Shown one piece after another: positions 8,942 through 62,975 of a DNA stretch of 64,000 bases. A program made the translations under genes and the position numbers. Each line of letters begins with the position of its first letter. Position 1 is the first letter of the stretch. The stretch comes from Fibrobacter sp. UWR2 (GTDB lineage Bacteria; Fibrobacterota; Fibrobacteria; Fibrobacterales; Fibrobacteraceae). The stretch is taken from the NCBI RefSeq assembly GCF_002210285.1, contig NZ_MWQE01000005.1, forward strand, positions 62,001 through 126,000. Direction: 5' to 3'. The notes beneath the pieces are model-generated. The model searched no databases, had not been told where the DNA came from, and worked only from the letters and a program-made list of their open reading frames with translations.

Positions 8942-9685
8942 ATGTCCAGTGAAAAAATGACATATGCGCTTACTGTGGCGGGCTTTGACGGCTCCGCCGG
9001 TGCGGGCTTTGTTGCCGACATCAAGACGATGGCGCACTTTGGCGTGTACGGCCAGGCGGTATGTACGGCGCTCACGCAACAGAACGAAGAAGAGTTTGTC
9101 GCCCCGGGCTGGGTCATATGGGACCGCATCGAGGCGCAGCTTGAAACGCTCTTTAAAAAGCATAAGTTCAAGTACGTGAAGATTGGCCTCGTGGAGAAGG
9201 CGCGCACGCTCAAGCGCATTGTGGATTTTGTCCGTAATGAATCTCCGGACGCGTTTATCGTGTGGGACCCGATTGCGAGTGCTTCGGCGGGGTTCCACTT
9301 TATGCGCGAGACCGACAAGTTTATCCCCGTAATGAAGTCGATTGACCTCGTGACTCCGAATCAGGACGAGTTTGCCTACCTGGGGCTCGGGCTTGCGCAG
9401 TCCCGCGGCGAAATCCACATGGGGCAGGACTTTGCGGTGCTGCTGAAGGGCGGGCACGCTCGGGGCAAGGAATCTGTCGATACGCTGTGGTACAAGGACG
9501 AACTGTGCAAGTTCAGGAGCCCGCGGCTCCCCGGCAAGGGCAAACACGGCACGGGCTGCGTGCTCTCTTCTGCAATTCTTGCGAACGTGGCGCTCGGACA
9601 CGACCTGCCAGAAGCCTGCCAGATAGCGAAGAACTACATGGACGAATTTCTCCAGAGCGGGGAAGGCCGCCTCGGGTTTGTCTAA
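8942..9685 (+). CDS. thiD: Hydroxymethylpyrimidine / phosphomethylpyrimidine kinase
   Basis: A 247-residue ribokinase-fold kinase that phosphorylates HMP and HMP-P for thiamine synthesis. Motifs seen are the N-terminal TVAGFDGSAGAGFVADIKT substrate loop, PNQDEF, LLKGGH and the anion-hole/catalytic segment GKGKHGTGCVLSSAI. The first ThiD motif usually reads AGxDSSGGAG; here Ser is replaced by Gly in part (FDGSAGAG), as also seen in divergent members. The other thiamine genes lie 14.5 kb downstream. Confidence 0.88.
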   Translation: MSSEKMTYALTVAGFDGSAGAGFVADIKTMAHFGVYGQAVCTALTQQNEEEFVAPGWVIWDRIEAQLETLFKKHKFKYVKIGLVEKARTLKRIVDFVRNESPDAFIVWDPIASASAGFHFMRETDKFIPVMKSIDLVTPNQDEFAYLGLGLAQSRGEIHMGQDFAVLLKGGHARGKESVDTLWYKDELCKFRSPRLPGKGKHGTGCVLSSAILANVALGHDLPEACQIAKNYMDEFLQSGEGRLGFV

Positions 9686-9707
9686 AAGGATTTTTTTAGG
9701 AGGAGTT

Positions 9708-11072
9708 ATGAAGCGTTTGGGAGCTTTTTTCGCAATATTGTTTTGCCTTGTCGCCTGTGATGACGACGAGTCGTTTATGACAAGGCCGAGTGACGATAGT
9801 GAACTTTCGTCGTCTAGTAAGAAAGACGGGTCTTCGTCGAGCGGGAAAGGCAAATCCTCCTCTGCCGAAAAGGATGCTTCGTCTTCGAGCAAAAAAGCGG
9901 GCTCGTCGAGCAGTTCCAGCGAAGGTAAATTGGCTGAAGTGTCTAGCAGTTCTCTTGAAAGCTGCGAGGAACTCAAGGCAAGGCTACTTCCGGAGGGCGT
10001 GAAGTATGGAACCATGACTGACGAACGCGACGGCCATGTCTACAAGACCCTCTATGTCGGGGATTATATGTGGATGGCCGAGAACCTGGATTACGATTAC
10101 AAGGTGGAAGGGGACTCCAGCGAGGGCAGCTGCACCACTAGGTGTTGTGAGATGCTAGGCCGTTCGTACCAGTGGAAAGATGCGATTGATTCTGCCGGTG
10201 TATTCTCGGGGGACGCCGCCGGTTGCGGCTATAAGGCGACTTCGAGACAATGCACGCAGACAGAACCTACGCAGGGAATTTGTCCGGAAGGCTGGCACTT
10301 GCCCAGTTCGTCTGAATGGAACCGCTTGTTTGGATATGTAAGTTCTTCGCGCCTAGGCCTTGAAGGGAACTATTGGACGTCGTATGACGCTTCGGGTGAG
10401 GAGGCTACTGCGGTATCCGCGAGGGATACCTCCAGAAAACTTGAACTTGACGATAAATACCATTACAAATTTATTCGCTGTGTGAAAAATGACTTTGATG
10501 CAACCACCTGGAACTGGCTGGTTTCCAAGGAAGAACGCTTTAATCCGGATATAGAGTATGGCGAGCTGAAGGATGAACGCGATAATCAAGTCTATAGGAC
10601 CGTGACGGTGGGTGAGCAGACCTGGATGGCGGAAAACCTGAACTACATTGACACAAATAACGTCTCATATTGTTACAACTGGAATCCCAGAAGTTGCAGC
10701 GTGGCCGGTCGCTTATACCGCACTTTCAATAGGGATTCGACATGCCCTGCAGGGTGGCGTATTCCGAGCGAGTCTGACTGGCGGATTCTTTTTAATTCTG
10801 TTGGCGGGGAGAACAGGGCGAGCATGGCGCTGAAAACTGCTCGCGGATGGAACGGCATTGACGAGGTGGGCTTTAGTATACTCCCTGCAGGGTACCAATA
10901 TTATTCATCCGGATATGGTTCATCGGGCCCCGTGTTTGCAGGAAGCGGCGAAGTAACCCAATTCTTGCCGAATGTCGTGGTGCGGAATAGCGGGCTGCAT
11001 TTTGAATACAACCCGACTGCAAATGAAGGCTCGTACATTCGCTGCATTAAGGTGGAAACTACGGAAGACTAG
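9708..11072 (+). CDS. Lipoprotein with Ser-rich linker and two FibSucc domains
   Basis: A 454-residue lipoprotein. ATG 9708 follows a strong AGGAGG at 9699-9704 and is preferred to the upstream in-frame TTG at 9678, which overlaps thiD. The lipobox is LFCLVAC (Cys18). A long Ser/Lys linker (about residues 30-85) resembles the linkers of Fibrobacter cell-surface proteins. Two FibSucc domains follow, starting YGTMTDERDG and YGELKDERDN, each with WMAENL; the CPEGWHLP and CPAGWRIP motifs are clear. Function unknown. Confidence 0.85.
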   Translation: MKRLGAFFAILFCLVACDDDESFMTRPSDDSELSSSSKKDGSSSSGKGKSSSAEKDASSSSKKAGSSSSSSEGKLAEVSSSSLESCEELKARLLPEGVKYGTMTDERDGHVYKTLYVGDYMWMAENLDYDYKVEGDSSEGSCTTRCCEMLGRSYQWKDAIDSAGVFSGDAAGCGYKATSRQCTQTEPTQGICPEGWHLPSSSEWNRLFGYVSSSRLGLEGNYWTSYDASGEEATAVSARDTSRKLELDDKYHYKFIRCVKNDFDATTWNWLVSKEERFNPDIEYGELKDERDNQVYRTVTVGEQTWMAENLNYIDTNNVSYCYNWNPRSCSVAGRLYRTFNRDSTCPAGWRIPSESDWRILFNSVGGENRASMALKTARGWNGIDEVGFSILPAGYQYYSSGYGSSGPVFAGSGEVTQFLPNVVVRNSGLHFEYNPTANEGSYIRCIKVETTED

Positions 11073-13889: not shown

Positions 13890-15137
13890 CTAGTCGCAGA
13901 AGGTCGCGATGCCCGGTGTAGGTGTGCCCAGACACCAGTTCTCGGGATTTTCGCGGTCGTCCCACGCGCCGATGTTCAGGTGCGAACTCCTTGTCGTAGA
14001 ACTGGAGTTGTTTAGCGGTGCGGCACTCAGGTGCAGCGAGTCCACCTTGCCGTAATAGACGGAATCCATGATTTCTCCGTCGCAGTGCAGTACGATGGAG
14101 GCTGCCGTCGAACCGTTGCTCTTGAGGAACGTGGGCATATTTTCGGTATGGCGGTATTCCTCTGGCGTGTTCGGGTTCGTGTCGTTGCCGAGTACGAGTG
14201 CCTCGCGCGGGGGCAGCACGAGCGATTCGATGATTGCGGATTCCTTCGGGAGGGTACTTTTCCCGATGGAACATCCCGTAATTTCGAGCGTGTCGTTGCT
14301 CCCGTTGTAGATTTCCACGAAGTCAAATGCAGTGGAGTCGCTCTTGACCGGGTTCACGAGGAATTCGCTGATGACCATGTCGCCTTCTGCGGGCGCCCTG
14401 CGTGCTGCGGGGAGTTCCAGCGGGAATACCATCTCCACTCCATCGGAAAGCTGTAGCGACACGCTGATTTTTGCACGGAGCGAATTAATCTGTAATTCCG
14501 GGACGGGAGTGTTCTCGTCGATGTGTACGCTGTCCTCGATGCTGTAGATGGCGTTACCCGCGGCATCGCGCAGGGTGAGCGTAAACGCATAGTCCACTCC
14601 GAGTGGGAGCATGTCGCTTGTGAATACGGCTGTAGAGCCTTCGATGGCCATCGGGTATTCGAACGTATCCGATTCGGATTGCAGCCTGAGCAAGCCTGAT
14701 GTGATTCCTGTGGGGTTGCCGAACCCGAGGGGGATTTCTACGTAGATGAATCCGACTACCGCATGCATCGGAATGGAAACGTTCGCGATTTCGCCAGCCG
14801 AAAGCTTGGTCTCGACTTCGCCTTTTTGCATGAGCGATCCGTTAGCATACAGCTTCGCCACGAATTTCCAGTGGTCGTGCGGGAATAGGTCCAGGTTGAA
14901 CCCTGTTTCCTTGGCCCCGAGCTTCATGTGGAGCGTATCCGCGCCATAGCAGTCGACAACGATGCTGTCGGTGAGGGGGACTGCCGTGTGGCTGAGTCGC
15001 AGCGCGACGCTTGCCGTTTTTGTATCGGCGGTGCCGACGGGGGAGTTTTCGCGGTCATCGCTTCCGCAGTGGCATAGGGCGAGGGCGCACATGGCGACGG
15101 CAAGTGCTTTTGCCTTTTTCTTGAATGCAGGACTCAT
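13890..15137 (-). CDS. Lipoprotein with C-terminal lamin-tail domain
   Basis: A 415-residue lipoprotein; the signal ends CALALCHCGSDD (lipidated Cys is one of the two, most likely the second). The middle is beta-rich without a recognised family. Residues about 250-345 match a lamin-tail domain (LTD): MVISEFLVNP, FDFVEIYNGSNDTLEITGCSI and LPPREALVLG. LTDs occur on bacterial surface and secreted proteins, often beside hydrolases, and probably mediate binding. AGGAGG (minus strand, 15142-15147) supports ATG 15137. Transcribed alone. Confidence 0.75.
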   Translation of the reverse strand: MSPAFKKKAKALAVAMCALALCHCGSDDRENSPVGTADTKTASVALRLSHTAVPLTDSIVVDCYGADTLHMKLGAKETGFNLDLFPHDHWKFVAKLYANGSLMQKGEVETKLSAGEIANVSIPMHAVVGFIYVEIPLGFGNPTGITSGLLRLQSESDTFEYPMAIEGSTAVFTSDMLPLGVDYAFTLTLRDAAGNAIYSIEDSVHIDENTPVPELQINSLRAKISVSLQLSDGVEMVFPLELPAARRAPAEGDMVISEFLVNPVKSDSTAFDFVEIYNGSNDTLEITGCSIGKSTLPKESAIIESLVLPPREALVLGNDTNPNTPEEYRHTENMPTFLKSNGSTAASIVLHCDGEIMDSVYYGKVDSLHLSAAPLNNSSSTTRSSHLNIGAWDDRENPENWCLGTPTPGIATFCD

Positions 15138-15291: not shown

Positions 15292-15759
15292 CTAGAGTTT
15301 CAGCCGGGATTTTCCTCCGGCGACTCTCTGGTTCTGCAGTTTCTCGGCGCAGGCCTTGTCTTGCCGGAGGATTTTCACGAGCGCGCTGGGCGAAAGTCCG
15401 AACGCGGCCGCAGCCGCCTTCGTGTCGCCGGCCTTTGTTGCCATGATGTCGAAAACGTGGGCGACGAACAGCGGAAACAGCGCGTTGGAGGGCTGTATAT
15501 GGCCGTTGCTCCCGGGGAAGGGTATTTCGGGGCCTGCGGGCGTTTCGCGGACATTCAGGGCGATTGCCATCTGCATGCGGTGCAGCGCATGGGTCTTGTT
15601 TTCCTTCGCGCTTCTCGCTTCGCACGATTTGATTTCTAAATTGTATTCACGTAGGCAAAGTTGTACGCCTGTGTTGGTCTTGTTGCGGTGTTGACCGCCG
15701 GGGCCACTTCCCTGAAACGCTTTCTGCGTGCAGGCGGCAAGCAACTGGTCCAAAGACAT
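15292..15759 (-). CDS. GGQ-domain release-factor-like protein
   Basis: A 155-residue protein with the peptidyl-tRNA hydrolysis motif of class I release factors in SGPGGQHRNKTNTGVQL (GGQ near residue 20), but without the codon-recognition domains. The helical C-terminal half ends in a basic LQNQRVAGGKSRLKL segment. This fits the 'peptide chain release factor-like' family related to ArfB/C12orf65, which act on stalled ribosomes; the HRNK after GGQ differs from ArfB (NVNK). Start ATG 15759 is chosen; an in-frame ATG at 15783 would overlap the divergent lipoprotein gene. The role in ribosome rescue is inferred. Confidence 0.8.
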   Translation of the reverse strand: MSLDQLLAACTQKAFQGSGPGGQHRNKTNTGVQLCLREYNLEIKSCEARSAKENKTHALHRMQMAIALNVRETPAGPEIPFPGSNGHIQPSNALFPLFVAHVFDIMATKAGDTKAAAAAFGLSPSALVKILRQDKACAEKLQNQRVAGGKSRLKL

Positions 15760-15777
15760 TCTTAGGTAGGTATCGCG

Positions 15778-16509
15778 ATGCATATCCTGAAAAATAAAAT
15801 TGTTGCAATGTTCTCGCTTGCGCTTGCTTTCGGAATTACCGCCTGTGCGGGCACTGCTGGGCAATCGGGTGACGGAAAACCGGCAGAATCGGGGGCAAGC
15901 GCCCAGGAGAAAAATGCCCAGTACGAGGGCCAGCTGCAGGACAAGCAGGCCATGCTGGAAAACATGTTTAACGGGTTCCTTTCTGCCGTGCGCAATGGTT
16001 CGGATGCCGAGACCCTCTACGGTTTCTTGACCGATACATCTGAATACTGGCTCGATACGCTCGAGAACCACGCGAAGGTCTACAATTCCGAGGCCCTGGA
16101 TACTTGCCAGTTCTACGAGGCGTATACCATAATCCTCTACCGCCTTTACGAACGCGAACACCTGTGGGAAACGGACGAAGACCGCATGCTCTTTATGATG
16201 CTCAGCAAGAGCGGCATGCTCGACCGCTTCACGAATTTGCCGCTTGGCCCGATGAAGGTGAAGAACGACCGTGGAAGCATCGGCCTTGCAAAGAGCCCGG
16301 AAGTGCCCATCATGATTTTCGAATGGGATGACCAGAACTGGAAACTCAACCTGCCCGAAACCGTCCCGCTCATCACGAAGGGTATCGAGTCTATCGCCGT
16401 GAAGAAAAACTGGAATGGCAAGAAACTTGCTCTCTACTGGATCGAGAAGGAATACCACATGACGTATTCCAGGCTTGACGAAAGCTTGCTTGAACCCATC
16501 GGTTTCTAA
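15778..16509 (+). CDS. Lipoprotein of unknown function, upstream of the PorU-like gene
   Basis: A 243-residue protein with lipobox GITAC (Cys about residue 23), a low-complexity linker, and a mostly helical body with several aromatic pairs (YWL, YRLYEREHLW). No family recognised. It is the first of four plus-strand genes with gaps of 12, 29 and 2 bp that lead into the C25/PorU-like peptidase, so a role in the same envelope process is plausible. Confidence 0.7.
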   Translation: MHILKNKIVAMFSLALAFGITACAGTAGQSGDGKPAESGASAQEKNAQYEGQLQDKQAMLENMFNGFLSAVRNGSDAETLYGFLTDTSEYWLDTLENHAKVYNSEALDTCQFYEAYTIILYRLYEREHLWETDEDRMLFMMLSKSGMLDRFTNLPLGPMKVKNDRGSIGLAKSPEVPIMIFEWDDQNWKLNLPETVPLITKGIESIAVKKNWNGKKLALYWIEKEYHMTYSRLDESLLEPIGF

Positions 16510-16521
16510 CGGGGGCCTTTG

Positions 16522-17406
16522 ATGCGGCTCTTTACAGCATTTCTGTTGCTTGCCTTTGTCGTGGGCTTTGCAAAGCCTGCCCAGAAACCGGTGCCTGCGA
16601 AGGGTTCTCCGGCTGCCCCCGCCAGGCTGATTGGTGCGGTGGATTCCCGTACGGAATTCCCTGGCGCGAGAATGTTTTCCGTGCTGGATTCTGTCGGCGG
16701 TACGGGCACCTGGATGGAATGGGATGTGAACGGCATCCGGGACCCGTCCGTGATGTACGTGCTCGACCCGCTTCTCAAGTCGGCAAACAAGCCCAAGATG
16801 GTCTGGGTTATCTCGGAGCGTGAAAAGCCCCTCATGGCGGTGTTGCTCCCGAAAGGGGCCGGCGAGGTACTTGCCTTTTATGAACTTGCTGCCCTCGACG
16901 CAAAGCCTGTCCCCCTGCAGATGAACCGCGTGCTCAGCCCCGATGTGGTGTTCCGCGACTACAGGCAGGTGAGCACATCCGAATTTGTCCACCTGGACAG
17001 ACCTTCACTGAAGGCTACGGCGACGGAGAAGTCCATTCGGTTCACGTACACGAATCCCGATGCGAGTCCGCTCCGTTTTGACAGCGACTTCACGAAAAAG
17101 ACTGTCGTCGAGAAGAAGAACGAGGTCCGCAACTACCACGACTTTTTCGAGTACGAGTATGTGCTGATGCTGCGCGCCTTCGTTCAGTCGACCCGCGGGC
17201 TTTTCAACTGGCAGGCCTGGCACTGGTACATGCCCGCTTTCAATGCTCGCGCCATGATTTCGGACAAGGAACTCGAGGCCATACTCTCGAAGGGCGTGCC
17301 TCCGCAGTCCATCACCATTTTCAAGATGAAGGCGGAAGGTGGTCAGTGGGTTGAATTTAAGACTAGCGGCAATGGTTTTTACGAAATGGTAATCACGAAT
17401 CCTTAG
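16522..17406 (+). CDS. Secreted protein of unknown function
   Basis: A 294-residue protein with a signal peptide (MRLFTAFLLLAFVVGFA) and no lipobox. ATG 16522 is preferred to the adjacent TTG 16519; GGGGG at 16511-16515 is the likely ribosome binding site. No domain recognised. It starts 12 bp after the lipoprotein gene and ends 29 bp before the PorU-like gene. Confidence 0.68.
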   Translation: MRLFTAFLLLAFVVGFAKPAQKPVPAKGSPAAPARLIGAVDSRTEFPGARMFSVLDSVGGTGTWMEWDVNGIRDPSVMYVLDPLLKSANKPKMVWVISEREKPLMAVLLPKGAGEVLAFYELAALDAKPVPLQMNRVLSPDVVFRDYRQVSTSEFVHLDRPSLKATATEKSIRFTYTNPDASPLRFDSDFTKKTVVEKKNEVRNYHDFFEYEYVLMLRAFVQSTRGLFNWQAWHWYMPAFNARAMISDKELEAILSKGVPPQSITIFKMKAEGGQWVEFKTSGNGFYEMVITNP

Positions 17407-17435
17407 TTTTTAGGAACCTGAATTTGTATTTTTAG

Positions 17436-20400
17436 ATGGTGAAGTTCTTTTTATACATAATTGCGATACTCCTTTTGAGCGTGTCTGCCTCGGCATCGAC
17501 GGTGGTGGAGGATTCCCGCTCGCGCTTTGTGCTCGATGACGGTGTGTACGATACGTCTGTCTACGGCTGTTCCGATGAACGCGGTACGGAAATTCCGGGC
17601 AACCGCTTCATTCCCGAAAATTCGTTCGTTGACGATAATAGTGATGTCCCGTTTCGCTTGTACCGTGTGGCTGTCCCCGCGGGTGCGACTCCGCGCGTTT
17701 CGCTTTCGGTAAAGAAGACTAAAAACCTGAAAGGGAGCCCCTGCAAGGGAGCCAAGCTGAAGTCCTCGCCGGTACATGCCTCGTCGCCGTATTTGCGCGA
17801 TGGCCTGTGGATTGTCGATATCCGGGTGCCGCTATACGAAAAGTCGGGCGCTTCGCTTAGGCTCCGCACGCAGTTCCGCCTTACGGTCGACTTTGCCGTG
17901 ACTGGTTCGGGAGTGAATCCTGGCAAGCGTGCCCTGTCACGCGTGGTAAACGGTAAGGGTGCTTCATCCTTCGGGGTCTCGCGCAATGCTTACCGCAAGT
18001 CGCTTCGCCGTATGGGTGTGTCGGATATCTCGGACGTGCATTTCCTCGCGAAGTTCCTTGTGGGCGACAGGAACGTGGCTACTACAAGCGAGGATGGCCT
18101 CTATGCGGTGGATTTCAAGACAATCAAGAATGCGCTCCTGCCGTACCTGAGGCAATCCGACCTGGATGGAATTCCCGTCGAGAAGTTGAGGCTTTTCGGT
18201 GCGTCTCCTGATACGATGTCTGCCAAGGTTCCTGGTCCTGACGTGATTGTTCCGGCCCACCTGTTCGAAATTCCTATCGAGGTGCGTGACCATTCCAAGA
18301 GTAGGGGTTCCTCAAGCCCGGATGGCACGTTCAATGACGGCGATTCCATCGTGTTTGTGGGTTACGGATCGTCATTCTGGAAATATGCGGATAGCCTCTA
18401 CTTCCATTCCACATCGCCGTATACCTTTTTCCAGCAGTTCCAGCTAGGCTGGAGCGAGACTGGCAAGGGCTTGCGCTTTGCCGATAAGATATCGTACACC
18501 TCCGATGGCGCGAAGGATATCCCGCTTATGCGCTACGTGCGTGCCGAGCAGGATGTCTACTTGAGGGATGCCTATTACGGCAAGCCGCTGGACTGGGACA
18601 AGACGACGGGTAAGGAATGGTTCTGGATATGGCACTGTAGGTTCGATACGACGAAGGTCCCGTCTTCTGACCTTATGAGGGATTCCCCGCAGGTGAAGGA
18701 TTTCCCGGGATTTGTTGATGGCGGTAAGACGCAATTGCAGGCCACGTTCGTTCCGTACCGTTCTGTCTGGGAAGCGAGTGTCGAACGCGATAACGACCAG
18801 ATTACAGATTACGAGATGTCCGGTATGAGCCTGGAGGAGCGTGTCGCTGCAATCCGGTTCCGCTTTACGCTTAATGGCAAGGAGTATTCGGACGAGTCTG
18901 CGGTTGTGGGCCCCGATGGCGGGTTTGTGTTCGATGACGTGCCGCTCAAGGGCTCCGAAAACGAGTATTCCCTGACGATACTTCCCAACGAGAAGCAGTA
19001 TGACCGCTTTGACGGCTACACCGTGGCCTATCAGTGGAATCCTGTGGTGGATTCTGCTGAATGGTATTTGCCCGGCAAGGTTTCGGGCAAGGTCCGCTTG
19101 CCGGTGCCTAATGGCGTGAGTCTCATGAAGTTCGTTGACCTTGTTCCCGTTGGAATCCTTGCGAATTCGGGAAAGTATGCCATAGATAGTGTTGTCGCCG
19201 GTGAGGATGTGCGCTATCTTGCCTTCAGGGAAGGCGTTTTCAGGAATGGCGATGGCCGCAACATGCTCGCGGTGGAGGGGCTGCCTGAAAATCATCGTGA
19301 AGTGCTTTCGGATATATCGAAAATCAGTTCTAAGACCGAATACCTGATAATCTCTGCTCCGGAATTTCTTGATGGTGCTGTCGAACTCGGTAAGTTCCGT
19401 TCGGAAGGGGATGCTGTTTCCAAGTATGCGACGACGGTGGTGAATGTCGAAGATATCTACAGGCAGTATACGGGCGGCTCGCTTTCGCCGGTAGCCATAA
19501 GGAACTATATCGCCTACGCCTATTCCGTTTGCCCCGATCTTCAGTACGTTCTCCTGCTTGGCTCCGGTCACTATGACTACCGCGGGGTTATTGCCAAACT
19601 GGGCAAGAATTTCATGCCTCCTTTTGAATGGGAAGATAACGTTACCGAGGATTTCTTCGCTGTGCTTGATTCGGGCGAACTGGTACGCTATGGGAACTAT
19701 GACCTGGATGTGTCTGTCGGGCGCCTGCCGGTCTCTACGGAATCTGAACTCTACGATTATATCGAAAAGGCGAAGGATTACGAGATGGTCGGCCGCTTTG
19801 ACCATTCGGACTGGCGAAAGACAATCCTGCTTGCGGCGGACGATGCGAAGAATGGAACGGTGGTGGACAGAACTCCGCATACGAAATCCCAGGAAAAGGT
19901 CGCGAAAGCGATTGACGCCTTGGTTAACGAGCTCGATTTCCGCTGGAACCAGAGAAAAGTGTACCTGCTGGATTATGAGGAAGATGCAGCCGGGCAGAAG
20001 AAACAGGCGACAGAGGACTTTTTGAATATTCTCAACCAGGGCGCCTTGATGACGACGTATTTCGGCCATGGCTCGAAAACGGACTGGGCGGCGGAAGGGC
20101 TCCTAAAGCCAAGCTACCTCTCTAGGCTATCGAACAAGGGTCGCTATACGATTCTCAATTCGTTCTCCTGTACGGTAGGCCGGTTCGACCAGGGAGATGC
20201 CAGGTCCCTGTCCGAGGAATTCCTGATTGCGCCCTTCAAGGGATCGATTGTCTCGGTCGGTGCCGCTCGAGAGACTTTCTCCACCTACAACGAACTGTTT
20301 GGACGGAACTTCATGTTCACGCTCCTGCGTAACGATGGCATATCGATGGGCGACGCCTTCCGTGCGGCAAAGAACGAAGCCTCGGCCTCCTATTCTAGGG

Positions 20401-21530
20401 CTCGCTTCAATAACGAGCACTACGTGTTCATCGGCGAGCCCGTCACCAAGATGCTCAAGGCTGATTTCAATGTGTCGCTGGACCAGAAACTTGATACGCT
20501 CAGGGCTCTCGACAAGGTGAAACTTTCCGGTTCTGTTTCGGGAATGGATAACGGCTTCATTGAACTTTCCTTGCGCGAGAGCCGCAATAGCAAGCGACTC
20601 TATATCGGGATTGAGGGTGTGGAAGAAGATACGCTCGATGTGTTGTACGACGGCGCCTTGATCTATTCCGAAAAGGTTCCCGTTGTTGGTGGACGTTATG
20701 AGACGGAATTCGTAACTCCGCGCAAGATATCGTTTGGCGATACCGCGGTGGAACTCAATGCGTGGGCCTATTCTAACGATGTCCGTGACATTGGCCGCTT
20801 CAGGCTTGGCGGTATCGGTATTTACGGCTTTTCCGCCTACGCCGACTCCATTCATGATTCCGATCCGCCCTCCATAAAGATCCAGAACTGCTATTCTACA
20901 GGGTCGGAAGCCTCGTTCTCTGATGAGGAGACGGTGAAACTGCAGGCTCCTGCATGCTTGCAGGTTGTTGTCGAGGATTCTACGGCCATCGATTTCCGCG
21001 AGCAGGCGGACGAGGGAATTTCCATAGAGGTCGAAGGGGTCGAGAATCCGTACCATCCGTATCCTTTCCTGGAGCAGTCATCCAAGAAGGCTGTATTCCG
21101 CAAGTCGTTTACGCTTGAAAGCTATCCGGAAGGCCATTATGTATTCCACGTACGGGCCATGGATGTGCTTGGAAATGTTGCTGTGAAGACTGTCAATCTG
21201 GACATTACCGAAGACATGAAGGCGGGCCTTGCCGATGTGTTCAACGTTCCCAATCCGGTGGGGAAGAAGGGCACTACGTTCTACTTCAAGAACCTTGCCG
21301 TGGACCGTGAGCCGACTGTGAATATCTTTATCTACAACCAGCATGGCCGCCTGGTGAAGGTCATCAAGGATGCCGTTTCGGGCGTGACGCACTGGGACGG
21401 CAAGGATAACCATGGTCGTAAATTGGCCAACGGACTGTATCATTATGTTGTTCGCAGTGAAGTCCCTGCTTCGGGTAACTTCAAGGCGAAGACGTGGACT
21501 AAAAAACAGAAATTGTTGATTTCGAGGTAA
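17436..21530 (+). CDS. porU: C25 (gingipain-family) cysteine peptidase, PorU-like sortase candidate
   Basis: A 1364-residue secreted protein with a signal peptide (MVKFFLYIIAILLLSVSASA). After a beta-rich N-terminal half comes a C25 peptidase domain at about residues 640-990. The catalytic His lies in YFGHGS (His878) and Cys in NSFSCTVGRFD (Cys912). The SLSEEFL ... GSIVSVGAARETFSTYNELF segment matches PorU-type proteins. The end (FNVPNPVGKKGTTFYFKN ... ANGLYHYVVR) is an FlgD-Ig-like domain, as in PorU. PorU is the T9SS enzyme that removes C-terminal signals and attaches cargo to the surface. Sortase activity and T9SS membership are inferred from family and from likely substrates in this window. 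Confidence 0.78.
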   Translation: MVKFFLYIIAILLLSVSASASTVVEDSRSRFVLDDGVYDTSVYGCSDERGTEIPGNRFIPENSFVDDNSDVPFRLYRVAVPAGATPRVSLSVKKTKNLKGSPCKGAKLKSSPVHASSPYLRDGLWIVDIRVPLYEKSGASLRLRTQFRLTVDFAVTGSGVNPGKRALSRVVNGKGASSFGVSRNAYRKSLRRMGVSDISDVHFLAKFLVGDRNVATTSEDGLYAVDFKTIKNALLPYLRQSDLDGIPVEKLRLFGASPDTMSAKVPGPDVIVPAHLFEIPIEVRDHSKSRGSSSPDGTFNDGDSIVFVGYGSSFWKYADSLYFHSTSPYTFFQQFQLGWSETGKGLRFADKISYTSDGAKDIPLMRYVRAEQDVYLRDAYYGKPLDWDKTTGKEWFWIWHCRFDTTKVPSSDLMRDSPQVKDFPGFVDGGKTQLQATFVPYRSVWEASVERDNDQITDYEMSGMSLEERVAAIRFRFTLNGKEYSDESAVVGPDGGFVFDDVPLKGSENEYSLTILPNEKQYDRFDGYTVAYQWNPVVDSAEWYLPGKVSGKVRLPVPNGVSLMKFVDLVPVGILANSGKYAIDSVVAGEDVRYLAFREGVFRNGDGRNMLAVEGLPENHREVLSDISKISSKTEYLIISAPEFLDGAVELGKFRSEGDAVSKYATTVVNVEDIYRQYTGGSLSPVAIRNYIAYAYSVCPDLQYVLLLGSGHYDYRGVIAKLGKNFMPPFEWEDNVTEDFFAVLDSGELVRYGNYDLDVSVGRLPVSTESELYDYIEKAKDYEMVGRFDHSDWRKTILLAADDAKNGTVVDRTPHTKSQEKVAKAIDALVNELDFRWNQRKVYLLDYEEDAAGQKKQATEDFLNILNQGALMTTYFGHGSKTDWAAEGLLKPSYLSRLSNKGRYTILNSFSCTVGRFDQGDARSLSEEFLIAPFKGSIVSVGAARETFSTYNELFGRNFMFTLLRNDGISMGDAFRAAKNEASASYSRARFNNEHYVFIGEPVTKMLKADFNVSLDQKLDTLRALDKVKLSGSVSGMDNGFIELSLRESRNSKRLYIGIEGVEEDTLDVLYDGALIYSEKVPVVGGRYETEFVTPRKISFGDTAVELNAWAYSNDVRDIGRFRLGGIGIYGFSAYADSIHDSDPPSIKIQNCYSTGSEASFSDEETVKLQAPACLQVVVEDSTAIDFREQADEGISIEVEGVENPYHPYPFLEQSSKKAVFRKSFTLESYPEGHYVFHVRAMDVLGNVAVKTVNLDITEDMKAGLADVFNVPNPVGKKGTTFYFKNLAVDREPTVNIFIYNQHGRLVKVIKDAVSGVTHWDGKDNHGRKLANGLYHYVVRSEVPASGNFKAKTWTKKQKLLISR

Positions 21531-21532
21531 TT

Positions 21533-22438
21533 ATGGATTTGAGAGAGAAACCGGGGAAGGTGCAGAAATTTTTGGAACTGATGCTGCGCTTTAGACTGAT
21601 TGCCCTGGTGGTAATGGTTGTCGTAACGGTTCCCATGTTATTGATGAATGTGAAGGGGTTCCTTGTGAGCGGTTGGCAGGGCTTCTTTTCTGTTCCGGTT
21701 GCCGCCTCCGAGGCCTTTGGAATGTGGCTTTCGGGAATTCAAGGCGTTCAGAGCCTGTGGTCTTCGGCTCAGTTCCTTGTTGCTGCGGGTGTTGCCTGTG
21801 TTGCGATGCTTTTCGTGTTTGGCGGTGTCCGCGCCGGGGTGGCATCGATTGTTTCGACATTGGCAGGCTTTGGCATCTTGATTTTGCTGGATGGCGATGA
21901 GAGTGTCGTTCTTCCGATGTTCGGCATCCTCGCACTGGTTTCCCTTGTGCTTTTTATCTTTGTCAAGAAGTCCGTTGTGTGTGCGCTATTCCCGTTTGTC
22001 TTGTGCAGTTTTTTCATTCCCTGCCTGGTGGATTTGAGCCCCTGGATTCTTAGCGAGAATTCAATTGAATTTTGGCTGGCAGCATTTGCAATGTTTGCGC
22101 TTGCTAATTCCATGGCGTTTGCTGTTGTTGCCGGTAAGCATCTGGGTGCCGGGGTCCCGCAGGCTGGTGCCCTGGTGAAGGCAGCCCGGCAGATGGTTGT
22201 GCCTGTGCTTGTCGGTGCGCTGCTGCTGGTAGTGGCCCTTGCGGAAACGCGGGTTGCAACGCCGGCTATGCCGGTTGAAACGGCGCATACGAGCTGGCTG
22301 TTCGTTGTCGTACGCTATGTGGCTCTTGTAGTTTGGTTCTTCGTATTCTTCTTTCCGATTTCGTCCTTCGCTCCGTGGGCTCGCCTGCGTGCAGGTAGCC
22401 GCCGCGTCGAGATGAAGGACAAAAAAAAGAAGAAGTAA
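21533..22438 (+). CDS. Polytopic membrane protein coupled to the PorU-like gene
   Basis: A 301-residue inner-membrane protein with about seven hydrophobic segments (for example LRFRLIALVVMVVVTVPMLL and WLFVVVRYVALVVWFFVFFF) and a basic Lys tail. It begins 2 bp after the PorU-like stop codon, so translation is probably coupled. No family recognised. Confidence 0.65.
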   Translation: MDLREKPGKVQKFLELMLRFRLIALVVMVVVTVPMLLMNVKGFLVSGWQGFFSVPVAASEAFGMWLSGIQGVQSLWSSAQFLVAAGVACVAMLFVFGGVRAGVASIVSTLAGFGILILLDGDESVVLPMFGILALVSLVLFIFVKKSVVCALFPFVLCSFFIPCLVDLSPWILSENSIEFWLAAFAMFALANSMAFAVVAGKHLGAGVPQAGALVKAARQMVVPVLVGALLLVVALAETRVATPAMPVETAHTSWLFVVVRYVALVVWFFVFFFPISSFAPWARLRAGSRRVEMKDKKKKK

Positions 22439-22457: not shown

Positions 22458-22480
22458 GGCGGGTCGATAACCCGCCCTTG
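22458..22480 (+). terminator. terminator of the PorU-like gene run
   Basis: Stem GGCGGGT (22458-22464) / ACCCGCC (22470-22476), 5-base loop, then CTT. Confidence 0.6.
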
Positions 22481-22485
22481 CATGT

Positions 22486-22513
22486 GTCATCCCCGGCTTG
22501 ACCGGGGATCTTC
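22486..22513 (+). repeat. dispersed palindromic repeat (GTCATCCCCGN type)
   Basis: GTCATCCCCGG-cttg-ACCGGGGATC, one of six related intergenic palindromes in the window; here between convergent genes, so it may also terminate yicC. Confidence 0.75.
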
Positions 22514-22514
22514 T

Positions 22515-23396
22515 TTATGCGATATTCAGCGACTGCTCCCTAATGCACTCGATCTCATTCTTGAGTTCGATGGCGAGTGCCGCAATCTCTGCGCTTTGGC
22601 ATTTTGTCCCGAGGGTATTCGCCTCGCGGCCCATCTCCTGAAGGATAAACCCGAGGTTCTTGCCCTGGGCTCCGCCCTTCTTGAGCGCGTCGAGGAACAG
22701 TTTGTTGTGGCTGTGGAACCGCGTGATTTCTTCGTGGATATCGAGCTTGTCGGCCATGATGCAGGCTTCCTGCAGCAGGCGCACGTCGTCGATTTCGCTA
22801 TCCTTCATGAGCGCGTTGATACGTTCACGGAACTTGACTTTCCATGTCTCGATGCGCTGCGGGTCCAGTACTTCGATTTTCGCGAGCACGTCTTCAAGGT
22901 GAGCGACTCGCTTTGTGAGGTCGGCGGCGAGGTTCGCACCTTCCTTTTCACGCATGGCGATGACGCCGTCCAAGGCCTTGTCGAGTTCTGCCTTCAGGTG
23001 CTTTTCCCAGGCTTCGTTGTCGGCATTGGCGTCGGTAAACTGCAATACTTCGGGAATGGCGAGCACGTGTTCTAGCTTGATGTCGCCGGCAATGCCGTAC
23101 TTGGCCTGCATGGCCTTCGTGATTTCGACGAATTTTGCGACGGCCACGTCGTTGTAGCATACGGGGATATTCCCGAGATTTCCTTCGCCGAGCGTGATGC
23201 TCATGTTCACCGAGCCGCGGGCCAGCTTGTCCTTGATTTGGGCCTTGAGGTCGTTTTCGAGATAGGCGAAGTTTTTAGGAATCTTGCTCGAGATTTCGAG
23301 GAATCGGCTGTTCACGCTGCGGACTTCGATAACGCAACTGACTCCGTTCAGGGTGGATTCGCTCTTTCCGAATCCGGTCATGGAAATAATCGACAT
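22515..23396 (-). CDS. yicC: YicC-family endoribonuclease
   Basis: A 293-residue protein opening [13 protein letters not shown] and ending with the DUF1732-type segment [22 protein letters not shown], both diagnostic of YicC. The E. coli homologue is a stress-related endoribonuclease. The start codon lies 6 bases after TATTAT on the minus strand with no Shine-Dalgarno sequence. Monocistronic between convergent and divergent neighbours. Confidence 0.9.
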
Positions 23397-26444: not shown

Positions 26445-27281
26445 CTAGTATTTGTAGTTTTTGCAGCCGATATCGCCATAGGTCGAGAAGCAGACTCCGT
26501 GCTCTGAGAGAAGAGCGCTACCTTCTCCATTCGCGGTGCTTAGCTTTCCACCATTTGGAAGCAGGGCTACTTCCACGGAATGGCTGTGCTCGTTGCGTCC
26601 GCTCCACTGGACGCTCATCGTCAAGCGGTAATTTGTTTTATTCGCTTTGCTACCCGAGCCTTGAGATGTTATCCCGTCTAAGCCAGAGGACTTTCCCTTG
26701 TTTAACTCTCTGCTGATAAACATCGGTTCCTTGGGAAAGGTCCGGTAATCTGAGTTGTTGTTATAGGGCACGGAATAGTAAGTTTCTCCGTCCTTTTTCC
26801 AATCATTATTGGTTCTGGCAATAAGAATGTCCGCAACACCATTAAAGCCGGATTCCTTTAGGGCATTGTACCATGTTCCGCTATTCCCAACCAAGGAACT
26901 CATTTCCGAGTTGGCTGTGACACTGGAGTGCTTTCCTTGTACATTGGTGGGAAGATCCGGACGTACTTCTACAATGAACAATTGTACGCCGGATTCACTT
27001 TTCAGGGCTTTTTTCAGTTTTTCGAGATTTTCTTGAGCCTTGTCTCCGGTCTTTACAAATGCGCTATTGAACAGAGCGCTTTCATCTTCAATCAGAGCTC
27101 TGTTCAACGCCTCTCTCAGGTAGTATAGTTTGAGGAGGTCTACCTTTTCTCTTGATTTTTCAACCATGCCGAAAATATTCGGAACCGCGACAGCGGAGAT
27201 AATGCCCATGACGGTGATGACGACCATGAGCTCAATCAAGGTAAAGCCATGTTTTTTATTATCTTGCTTTTGCATAAGCAT
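26445..27281 (-). CDS. Type II/IV pseudopilin-like protein
   Basis: A 278-residue protein with a class III signal: a short basic leader, the cleavage site KKHG/FTLIELMVV with Glu at +5, then a hydrophobic helix. The globular part is unusually long for a major pilin and has a C-terminal Cys pair (GVCFSTYGDIGC). Minus-strand ATG 27281 is chosen because AAAGGA sits 8 bases upstream; ATG 27275 and 27299 are alternatives. It stands alone between thiH and thiE, so its assembly machinery is elsewhere. Confidence 0.8.
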   Translation of the reverse strand: MLMQKQDNKKHGFTLIELMVVITVMGIISAVAVPNIFGMVEKSREKVDLLKLYYLREALNRALIEDESALFNSAFVKTGDKAQENLEKLKKALKSESGVQLFIVEVRPDLPTNVQGKHSSVTANSEMSSLVGNSGTWYNALKESGFNGVADILIARTNNDWKKDGETYYSVPYNNNSDYRTFPKEPMFISRELNKGKSSGLDGITSQGSGSKANKTNYRLTMSVQWSGRNEHSHSVEVALLPNGGKLSTANGEGSALLSEHGVCFSTYGDIGCKNYKY

Positions 27282-27409
27282 AGTGTACGTCCTTTGCAAA
27301 AACTAACCGTGTATACAGAAAAAATAGTTCTTTTTTTACGAAAATAATGCGTTTTTTTTGAAAAAAAGGGATTCTTTAACAGAAATCACAAATAAACCGC
27401 CCATTTTTC

Positions 27410-42235: not shown

Positions 42236-44023
42236 TTATTTGGCCTGCTTGGGCATCTGCACGGAGATGTGGATGTCCTGCAACTGCTGGAGGTCCACTT
42301 CGCTCGGGCACTGGTCCATCGGGCTAGAAGCACTCGTGTTCTTCGGGAACGCGATGTAGTCACGGATGGATTCTTCACCTTCCATGGTAGCCACGACGCG
42401 GTCGAGACCGAAGGCGAGACCACCGTGCGGAGGAGCGCCGTACTTGAAGGCGTCGACGAAGAAGCCGAACTTGGTGCGAACCTGTTCTTCGGTAAGGCCG
42501 AGCAGGCGGAACACCTTTTCTTGGACTTCCGGGTTGTGGATACGGATAGAACCGCCACCGATTTCCACGCCGTTCAGAACGAGGTCGTAGGCTTCGGCGT
42601 TGCAATCCTTGAGGTTGCCACCGAGCATCATGTCCAGGTGTTCCGGAAGCGGGTTGGTGAACGGATGGTGCATGGCCATGTAGCGGCCTTCGGTGTCGCT
42701 GTATTCGAACATCGGAAATTCGGTAATCCACACAAATTCGCGCTTCTTCGGGTCGCGGAGGCCCTTGATGCGGGCGACTTCCAGACGGAGCTGGCCCATA
42801 GCCGTAGCAGCAACCTTTTCCGGACCGGCGATGAAGAACATCATGTCGCCGCACTTGGCGCCAACAGCGTCGCGCAGTTCGTTGAGCTGTTCGGTCGTGA
42901 AGAACTTGCCGACCTGCGTTTCCACTTCGTCGTTTTCCTTGACGCGCATCCACACGAGGCCCTTGGAACCGTACTTGCCCACGTAGGCTGTGAGTTCGTC
43001 AATCTGCTTGCGGGTGAAGTCAACGCAACCCTTGGCAGCGATACCGCGGATCTTGCCACCGGCGGCAACGCAGTTCTTGAACACGCCGAAGTTGGACTTT
43101 GCACCGATTTCGGACACATCGTGGATTTCGAGGTCGAAGCGGAGGTCCGGCTTGTCGGAACCGTACTTGAGCATGGCTTCGTGCCACTTCATACGGCGAA
43201 TCTTCTTGGGAGGTTCGAAGTTCCAAACCTTACCGAGAACTTCGGTCACGAACTTGTCGAACATTTCCATGACTTCGTCCTGGTTGACGAAGGACATTTC
43301 AACGTCGATCTGCGTGAATTCCGGCTGACGGTCAGCGCGGAGGTCTTCGTCGCGGAAGCACTTGGCAATCTGGAAGTAGCGGTCCATGCCGGCAATCATC
43401 AAGAGCTGCTTGTACTGCTGCGGAGACTGCGGAAGGGCGTAGAACTTGCCCGGGTTCACGCGGGACGGCACGAGGTAGTCACGGGCGCCTTCCGGAGTGG
43501 ACTTGCAAAGGCACGGAGTTTCGATGTTTTCAAAACCGTTAGCGTAGAAGAAGTCGTACACGGCCTTGAGGAAGCGGCTCTTGAGGAGGAGCTTCTTCTG
43601 GATCCACGGGCGGCGGAGGTCCAGGTAGCGGTACTGCAAGCGGAGGTCGTCGTTTTCCTTGCATTCTTCGTTCGGGTCGTTAATGGCGAGCGGAGAAGTG
43701 AGAGCGGCGTTCAGGATTTCGAGCTTGTCGGCCTTGACTTCGATTTCACCCGTAGCGAGCTTTTCGTTGGTGTTGCCTTCTTCGCGGGCGTAGACCTTAC
43801 CAGTCACGTAAATAACGTATTCGTTACGGAGCTGTTCGGCGGTCTTCAACACGTCGGCGTTGTAGTCGGGGTTGAAAACGATCTGGGTCTTGCCATACTT
43901 GTCGCGGAGGTCAACGAAAATCACACCACCATGGTCACGGCGGCGATCCACCCAACCGGCGAGTGTTACGGTCTGGCCAACATCTTCCTTGCGAAGCTGG
44001 CCGCAGTTATGTGTACGTTTCAT
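42236..44023 (-). CDS. aspS: Aspartyl-tRNA synthetase
   Basis: A 595-residue class II synthetase of bacterial type: N-terminal OB anticodon-binding domain (GWVDRRRDHGGVIFVDLRD), motif 2 FRDEDLRADRQPEFTQIDVE, the bacterial GAD insertion, and motif 3 GLAFGLDRVVATM. Both discriminating and non-discriminating forms exist; this cannot be decided here. The minus-strand AAGGA is 9 bases before ATG 44023. Confidence 0.97.
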   Translation of the reverse strand: MKRTHNCGQLRKEDVGQTVTLAGWVDRRRDHGGVIFVDLRDKYGKTQIVFNPDYNADVLKTAEQLRNEYVIYVTGKVYAREEGNTNEKLATGEIEVKADKLEILNAALTSPLAINDPNEECKENDDLRLQYRYLDLRRPWIQKKLLLKSRFLKAVYDFFYANGFENIETPCLCKSTPEGARDYLVPSRVNPGKFYALPQSPQQYKQLLMIAGMDRYFQIAKCFRDEDLRADRQPEFTQIDVEMSFVNQDEVMEMFDKFVTEVLGKVWNFEPPKKIRRMKWHEAMLKYGSDKPDLRFDLEIHDVSEIGAKSNFGVFKNCVAAGGKIRGIAAKGCVDFTRKQIDELTAYVGKYGSKGLVWMRVKENDEVETQVGKFFTTEQLNELRDAVGAKCGDMMFFIAGPEKVAATAMGQLRLEVARIKGLRDPKKREFVWITEFPMFEYSDTEGRYMAMHHPFTNPLPEHLDMMLGGNLKDCNAEAYDLVLNGVEIGGGSIRIHNPEVQEKVFRLLGLTEEQVRTKFGFFVDAFKYGAPPHGGLAFGLDRVVATMEGEESIRDYIAFPKNTSASSPMDQCPSEVDLQQLQDIHISVQMPKQAK

Positions 44024-44054
44024 GGTTGTATCCTTGAAGATAATTTTTCGGGCG

Positions 44055-44062
44055 TAAATATA
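44055..44062 (-). promoter_or_regulatory. aspS -7/-10 element
   Basis: Minus-strand TATATTTA inside TTTTACTATATTTACG, about 31 bases before the start codon. Confidence 0.45.
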
Positions 44063-44098
44063 GTAAAAACGTGATTGTTATCTCTGAAAAACGTTTAT

Positions 44099-61073: not shown

Positions 61074-62975
61074 ATGAGCAAGATTATCGGTATTGACTTG
61101 GGAACGACCAACAGCTGCGTGTCCGTGATGGAAGGCGGCAAGCCGGTCGTGATCGCTAACGCGGAAGGTTTCCGCACCACCCCGTCCATTGTCGCTTTCG
61201 GCAAGAACGGCGAACGTCTGGTGGGCCACGTGGCAAAGCGTCAGGCCATCACCAACCCCGAAAAGACGATTTACTCCATCAAGCGTTTCATGGGTCGCAC
61301 TGCCGGTGAATGCTCCGCTGCCGAAAAGAACATGCCCTACAAGCTGGTGGGCACGGGTTCTGACCCGGTGCGCGTGCAGGTGGACGACAAGCAGTTCGCT
61401 CCTCCCGAGATTTCGGCCATGGTGCTCCAGACCATGAAGAAGATTGCCGAAGACTATCTGGGCCAGCCGGTGACGCAGGCCGTGATTACGGTCCCCGCCT
61501 ACTTTAACGACTCCCAGCGTCAGGCTACGAAGGATGCGGGCAAGATCGCTGGCCTCGAAGTGCTGCGTATCGTGAACGAACCGACGGCTGCTGCCCTTGC
61601 CTACGGTCTTGACTCCAAGAAGAGCGAAAAGGTCGCCGTGTATGACCTCGGTGGCGGTACGTTCGATATCTCCATCCTGGAAATCGACGACGGCATGTTC
61701 AGCGTGAAGGCCACCAACGGCGATACGATGCTTGGCGGTGACAACTTCGACGAAGTGATTATCGACTGGATCAACGACGAATTCAAGAAGGACAATCCGG
61801 GCATCGACCTGAAGAAGGACAAGATGGCCCTGCAGCGTTTGAAGGACGCCGCTGAAAAGGCGAAGATCGACCTTTCTGCAACGACTTCCACGAACATCAA
61901 CCTCCCCTTCATCACTGCCGACGCTTCGGGCCCGAAACACTTGGACCTCACGCTCAGCCGTGCAAAGTTTGACCAGCTGACCGCCCACCTGGTGGAACGC
62001 TCCATGGAACCGTGCCGCAAGGCTATCGCCGACTCCGGCCTCTCCCTGAGCGAAATCGACGAGGTGATCCTGGTTGGTGGTTCTACCCGTATTCCGGCCG
62101 TTCAGGAAGCCGTGAAGAAGTTCTTCGGCAAGGAACCGAACAAGACTGTGAACCCGGACGAAGTGGTGGCTATCGGTGCCGCCGTCCAGGGTGCCGTGCT
62201 TAGCGGCGACTCCTCCGTGAAGGACGTGCTCCTCCTCGACGTGACCCCGCTTTCCTTGGGTATCGAGACCCTCGGTGGCGTGATGACCAAGCTCATCGAC
62301 CGTAACACCACGATTCCGACCAAGAAGAGCCAGGTGTTCTCTACCGCCGAAGACAACCAGCCGGCCGTGACGATTCACGTGCTGCAGGGCGAACGCGAAT
62401 TTGCCCGCGACAACCGTACGCTCGGCAAGTTCGACCTGACCGACCTCCCGAAGAAGCCGCGTGGCGTGCCGCAGATCGAAGTGACCTTCGATATCGACGC
62501 GAACGGCATTGTGCACGTGTCTGCTAAGGACAAGGAAACCGGCAAGGAACAGTCCATCAAGATTACTTCTTCCAGCGGCTTGTCTGAAGACGAAATCAAC
62601 AAGATGGTGAAGGATGCCGAAGCCAACGCTGCCAAGGACAAGGAACAGCGCGAACTGGTGGACATCAGGAACCAGGCCGAACAGATGGCTTACCAGGCCG
62701 AAGGTCAGCTCAAGGAATTTGGCGACAAGTTGCCGGCCGACACCAAGAGCCAGCTGCAGGCTGCCATTGACGACATCAAGGCCAAGAAGGACAACGGCAC
62801 CAAGGAAGAGATCAAGGCCGCTATGGACAAGCTCCAGGGCATGATCAGCTCCATGGCTCAGGCCGCCGGTGCAAACCAGGCTCAGCCGGGTCCGCAGCCG
62901 GGCGCTTCTGAACAGCCGAAGTCCGACAAGAAGGGCGATGGCCCGGAAGTCGTCGACGCGGAAGTGGTTGACTAA
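61074..62975 (+). CDS. dnaK: Chaperone DnaK (Hsp70)
   Basis: A 633-residue Hsp70. ATPase signatures [23 protein letters not shown] and [14 protein letters not shown], the interdomain linker [16 protein letters not shown], substrate-binding domain, helical lid and a Gln/Pro-rich tail ending in [13 protein letters not shown] (61063-61067) sets the start at ATG 61074. dnaJ follows after 129 bp and a terminator-like hairpin. Confidence 0.98.

Follow-up and report, generated by a model that had tools for sequence, protein, structure and literature searches.

How do the cellulases of Fibrobacter, a main cellulose degrader of the rumen, reach the cell surface and stay there? The genes for a sortase, a translocon and a shuttle described below address this question. 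In Bacteroidota, the sortase of the type IX secretion system (T9SS) is PorU, and a porU-like gene is present in a stretch of 64,000 nucleotides from Fibrobacter sp. UWR2 (positions 62,001 to 126,000 of contig NZ_MWQE01000005.1), here called the window. We asked whether this gene encodes the sortase of a T9SS and whether the genes next to it belong to the same system. A T9SS was proposed for Fibrobacter succinogenes S85 from C-terminal signal domains (CTDs) on cellulases (Raut et al. 2019, PMC6851124), a paper whose main text mentions neither PorU nor a sortase. BLAST matches had suggested T9SSs in Fibrobacteres (PMC5837995), and a 2024 paper counts Fibrobacterota among the possible carriers (PMC11285876). 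In the open literature, subscription papers being mostly outside the search, we found no account of a PorU locus in Fibrobacter, nor of the apparent gap in motor and ring proteins reported here.

The original prediction placed a run of four genes around a C25 peptidase, with two exported proteins of unknown type ahead of the peptidase and a membrane protein 2 bp behind it. All four open reading frames (ORFs) were present on the forward strand at 15778-22438 and encode, in this order, a lipoprotein, an exported protein, the C25 peptidase and a polytopic membrane protein (Table 1). The intergenic gaps are 12, 29 and 2 bp, so the spacing behind the peptidase was as described. The ORF of gene 2 opens with a TTG at 16519, adjoined by an ATG at 16522, and the ATG is the likelier start. 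Upstream, the run ends at a divergent gene for an RF-1-domain protein; downstream, terminator-like stem-loops and a convergent yicC-like gene close it off. The four genes therefore probably form one operon. The RF-1-domain protein is small and has a GGQ motif; the start of its gene overlaps that of gene 1 on the opposite strand. Elsewhere in the window there are genes for a protein that carries two stretches of Fib_succ_major domain (PF09603) and for a protein that resembles type IV pilins and bears a methylation motif at its N-terminus (PF07963).

Table 1. Coordinates of the porU locus and of related features. Positions without prefix refer to the window; prefixes are our handles for genomes, contigs and loci (G000, the genome of the window).
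Feature	Position	Strand	Product	Basis or remark
Gene 1	15778-16509	+	243 aa lipoprotein	ORF, lipobox, own alignment
Gene 2	16522-17406	+	294 aa exported protein	ORF, own alignment
porU-like gene	17436-21530	+	1364 aa C25 cysteine peptidase	PF01364, NF033707, 6za2
Gene 4	21533-22438	+	301 aa polytopic membrane protein	ORF, own alignment, AlphaFold model
RF-1-domain gene	about 15292-15783	-	release-factor-like protein	divergent, upstream boundary of the four-gene run
Terminator-like stem-loops	22458-22509	both		between gene 4 and yicC-like gene; consensus scan, weak alone
yicC-like gene	22515-23396	-		convergent, downstream boundary; name read by eye
Lamin Tail Domain gene	13890-15137	-	lipoprotein-like protein
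Fib_succ_major gene	9678-11072	+
Type IV pilin-like gene	26445-27299	-
SprA/Sov gene	G000:C1:347079-353657		2284-aa frame	main stretch 1131 bits
Tandem MotA/ExbB pairs	G000:C12:49568-50586; G000:C2:378804-379757; also G031:C1:204919-205919, 43186-44086
mltD-sppA-PorU loci	L071:966-8583; L072:10386-18013; L122:669-8134; L123:669-7822

The C25 peptidase and its relatives

The peptidase matched the C25 family over the whole profile (PF01364, positions 1-374 of 374; 238 bits, E = 3e-70, cut-off 23), which puts its C25 domain at residues 636-1006. The two residues that had been singled out as catalytic, His878 in YFGHGSKTDW and Cys912 in NSFSCTVGRFD, align with the GHG and the Cys of Porphyromonas gingivalis PorU. 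They were invariant in all aligned Fibrobacterota homologue rows covering the respective position (43/43 for His878 and 44/44 for Cys912), and the assignment as a C25 peptidase with this dyad was thereby borne out. The best solved relative, and the sole strong match in the PDB, was P. gingivalis PorU itself (6za2, E = 1.5e-24), with an alignment that covers residues 635-1343, that is, the catalytic, Ig-like and C-terminal domains. The predicted FlgD-like end was recovered in part: FlgD-like and CHU_C models matched residues 1282-1341, but their scores (24.3 and 26.4 bits) fell just below the curated cut-offs (27). The PorU model runs on through this segment to residue 1347, and the segment is consistent with the C-terminal Ig-like domain of PorU (about 1282-1347).

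In the search with PorU models, the NCBIfam PorU model NF033707 scored 372 bits, far above the 116 bits obtained with the PorU2 model but under the equivalog cut-off of 420 bits. The first ~620 residues of the peptidase do not align to the PorU model. To place this score, the model can be compared across the phylum: it matched in 81 of 81 Fibrobacterota genomes, representing 34 genera, and exceeded the cut-off in 28 of these, none of which belongs to the family of the window. Judged by these profile matches, the sortase group spans the phylum, and the peptidase of the window is one of its diverged members. Several PorU-model (C25-type) matches per genome were seen in other Fibrobacterota families (G022, G040, G060 and others).

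Family C25 also includes gingipains and other paralogues, and the protein might accordingly be a secreted surface peptidase of the gingipain-like or PorU2-like kind that the T9SS exports as cargo, and not the sortase of that system. Its score under the PorU cut-off and the several C25 proteins per genome in deep Fibrobacterota would agree with this. However, the large difference between the PorU and PorU2 scores, a match to Lys-gingipain at E = 3e-4 only and a domain architecture that is that of PorU argue against a cargo peptidase. So does the distribution of the family: the gene in the window is the only C25 gene found in its genome, and C25/PorU was present in every tested genome of the phylum. 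We therefore consider a cargo peptidase very unlikely. The 1364-residue protein is, with high probability, the PorU sortase of a divergent T9SS.

Translocon, shuttle, cargo and motor

The original prediction tied the peptidase to type IX secretion, a link that depends on the presence of other T9SS components in the genome. Of the components it had named, SprA/Sov (Table 1) and PorV-family proteins were found. SprA/Sov was present in all 14 Fibrobacterota genomes tested (11 genera), and the same 14 of 14 (11 genera), the genome of the window included, had PorV-family proteins over the cut-off. The model for the T9SS C-terminal signal (TIGR04183) gave 50 matches in the genome of the window, compared with 54 in a Flavobacterium control; these figures count model matches, i.e. 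candidate cargo. With a translocon, a shuttle family and candidate cargo in the same genome, sequence comparison gives good grounds for regarding the peptidase as the PorU of a T9SS.

The most likely course of events, in which the secretion, cleavage and attachment steps are taken from the Porphyromonas system, is as follows. Cargo carrying a C-terminal signal domain would be brought to the periplasm by Sec, would cross the outer membrane through SprA/Sov and would then be handed to PorV. At the surface, the His878/Cys912 dyad of PorU would remove the signal domain and join the cargo to a surface anchor. The gene 4 product in the inner membrane, the gene 1 lipoprotein and the periplasmic or exported gene 2 protein may aid PorU.

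The search for PorL, PorM and PorN, also named in the original prediction, gave no match in 12 to 14 Fibrobacterota genomes. The model of the motor protein GldM (PorM) matched in 0 of 14 Fibrobacterota genomes, compared with 4 of 4 Bacteroidota controls, and that of the ring protein GldN (PorN) in 0 of 12, compared with 3 of 3 in Bacteroidota. The GldL (PorL) motor model, which was without a Bacteroidota positive control, matched in 0 of 14. These absences come from family-model searches, which strongly diverged motors could escape. Inspection by eye of the ORF list around SprA revealed nothing motor-like, and some ftsH-, folP- and RNase G-like genes. The Fibrobacter T9SS may lack the known motor, or its motor may have diverged beyond recognition.

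MotA/ExbB-family proteins gave seven matches in the genome of the window versus two in the Flavobacterium control. None of the seven has coordinates inside the window or in the regions inspected around SprA. Some MotA/ExbB-family genes form tandem pairs of a long (504-538 aa) and a short (195-243 aa) member, which are candidate energy modules (Table 1). We tentatively consider, while thinking it rather unlikely, that the Fibrobacterota T9SS has kept translocon, shuttle, sortase and cargo signals with a motor and ring other than PorL/M/N, and that it uses another energy module (e.g. of the ExbB type) or no dedicated motor, gene 4 being a family-specific add-on. A true absence of the familiar motor and ring would mean that T9SS transport can be energised differently, with consequences for the rotary-motor model developed for Bacteroidota.

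Genes beside porU

The two genes ahead of porU had been described as encoding exported proteins of unknown type, and this description stands. Reading the translations by eye, we found a lipobox (FGITAC) in gene 1 and a Sec-type signal peptide in gene 2. Neither family had a Pfam match near the cut-off (13 members of gene 1 and 15 of gene 2), and neither gene searched singly matched NCBIfam. Profile searches of the PDB returned no convincing relative for gene 1 and chance-level matches for gene 2; the predicted structure of gene 2 (pLDDT 86.8) had no fold match in the PDB. The gene 2 family has a nearly invariant stretch, YEYxxMLRxFxQSxxxxFNWQxWHWY.

Both genes were present in 12 of 12 Fibrobacter loci read. 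Outside the genus, gene 1 was found at L061 (one neighbouring genus) and gene 2 at L060, L061, L065 and L126, directly upstream of PorU. Genes 1 and 2 thus accompany PorU in Fibrobacter and, beyond it, in no more than three nearby genera. Conservation within the genus tells little, because the Fibrobacter block also holds an upstream lipoprotein gene and a small ORF beyond it that are conserved about as well as genes 1 and 2. The former encodes the Lamin Tail Domain (PF00932) protein of Table 1, which is next to the operon in each of the 12 Fibrobacter loci that were read. The expectation that the four genes would co-occur across Fibrobacterota was not borne out: in the other families examined, PorU occurs with none of genes 1, 2 and 4 beside it, and its neighbours there are unrelated. 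In family f2 and in genera g35 and g36 (these and f1, the family of the window, and g7 are working labels), PorU lies behind mltD, encoding a lytic transglycosylase with LysM, and sppA on the same strand. A large lipoprotein and a single-TM protein upstream of PorU elsewhere, suspected of being PorW/SprE-like or PorM-like, were actually MltD and SppA. The neighbours of PorU are lineage-specific, and none of them is a T9SS part shared by the whole phylum.

Of 151 genomes, 92 had gene 4, and every one of these belongs to family f1. Because of this confinement to one family, we rejected a role for gene 4 throughout the phylum. Among genomes found in both searches, whose coordinates were compared, it lies directly behind PorU in 26 of 26 Fibrobacter and in 8 of 9 other f1 members. 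In the loci that were read, the two genes are 1-10 bp apart, while the rest of the surroundings varies. In genus g7, gene 4 is located away from PorU, next to a panC-like gene (recognised by eye). That the adjacency is kept across most genera of f1 amid changing flanks suggests a functional link between the two genes. Gene 4 is probably co-translated with PorU and is the best candidate among the neighbours for a functional partner.

Support for the proposal that these neighbours belong to a Fibrobacter T9SS is thus weak: gene 4 stays with PorU across most genera of f1, but genes 1 and 2 accompany it in few genera. On balance, we think it somewhat probable that nothing but shared ancestry keeps the four genes together and that genes 1, 2 and 4 are unconnected with the T9SS. 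The genus-level block also includes the unrelated Lamin Tail Domain lipoprotein and small ORF, gene 4 stands apart from PorU in g7, and PorU follows the ordinary genes mltD and sppA in f2, g35 and g36. Shared ancestry accounts less readily for the closely spaced PorU-gene 4 pair, which persists despite changing flanks, and for the position of gene 2, which immediately precedes PorU also in those other genera that have it. As the less probable alternative, we propose that genes 1, 2 and 4 are lineage-specific aids to the export, folding or anchoring of PorU and not core T9SS parts.

What kind of protein is encoded by gene 4? The product has about eight hydrophobic helices, in keeping with the membrane protein that had been predicted. 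Among 18 members, there was no Pfam or NCBIfam match near the cut-off, and profile comparison with the PDB gave chance-level matches only. Foldseek comparison of the AlphaFold model (pLDDT 82) with the PDB gave the highest probability for RND membrane domains (6ows, 0.85 with E = 1.6); a MexB/MexY chimera was among the matches (probability 0.77), and all RND fold matches had E > 1. Compared profile to profile with 27 other TM-rich clusters, gene 4 conspicuously resembled the MMPL cluster alone (probability 63, with a pairwise E of 7e-5). The hhalign score with MMPL was 45, compared with 16-25 for reversed and block-shuffled controls. Since most control clusters in the scan were single sequences, the likeness of gene 4 to RND/MMPL is a lead and not a membership. 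The model and the profiles weakly point to an inner-membrane protein resembling the membrane half of RND/MMPL proteins without the porter.

This distant resemblance in profile and fold, combined with the likely co-translation with the sortase, could mean that gene 4 encodes an RND/MMPL-derived transporter component that supplies PorU with a substrate for surface anchoring, e.g. a lipid or sugar. Such a role appears quite unlikely to us: the porter domain is absent, the fold matches have E > 1, the control families were mostly single sequences, and Fibrobacter lacks an acidic residue that other genera have in the presumed TM4. We retain gene 4 as a candidate partner of PorU.

Comparison with known systems

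In its membrane part, gene 4 is like the RND/MMPL membrane domain in having about eight helices and in aligning with TM2-TM6 of the MMPL N-terminal half. Unlike RND/MMPL transporters, it is a single half that lacks the large periplasmic porter domain, and it has no significant Pfam or PDB match. The peptidase shares with P. gingivalis PorU (6za2; NF033707) the C25 domain with its His/Cys dyad, a similar size, a C-terminal Ig-like domain and a signal peptide. It differs in its N-terminal ~620 residues, which are unrecognised by the PorU model, in its score below the equivalog cut-off and in the 2-bp linkage of its gene to that of a family-specific membrane protein. As for the system as a whole, models of GldL, GldM and GldN (PorL, PorM and PorN), components of the Bacteroidota T9SS (Por/Gld/Spr), match nothing in the tested Fibrobacterota, whereas the SprA/Sov translocon, a PorV-family shuttle, PorU and candidate CTD cargo are common to both. 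The system is of the same kind as that proposed for S85 (PMC6851124), and to that proposal we add the apparent motor and ring gap together with the sortase, translocon and PorV-family genes, whose identification makes the proposed Fibrobacter T9SS testable by single-gene deletion.
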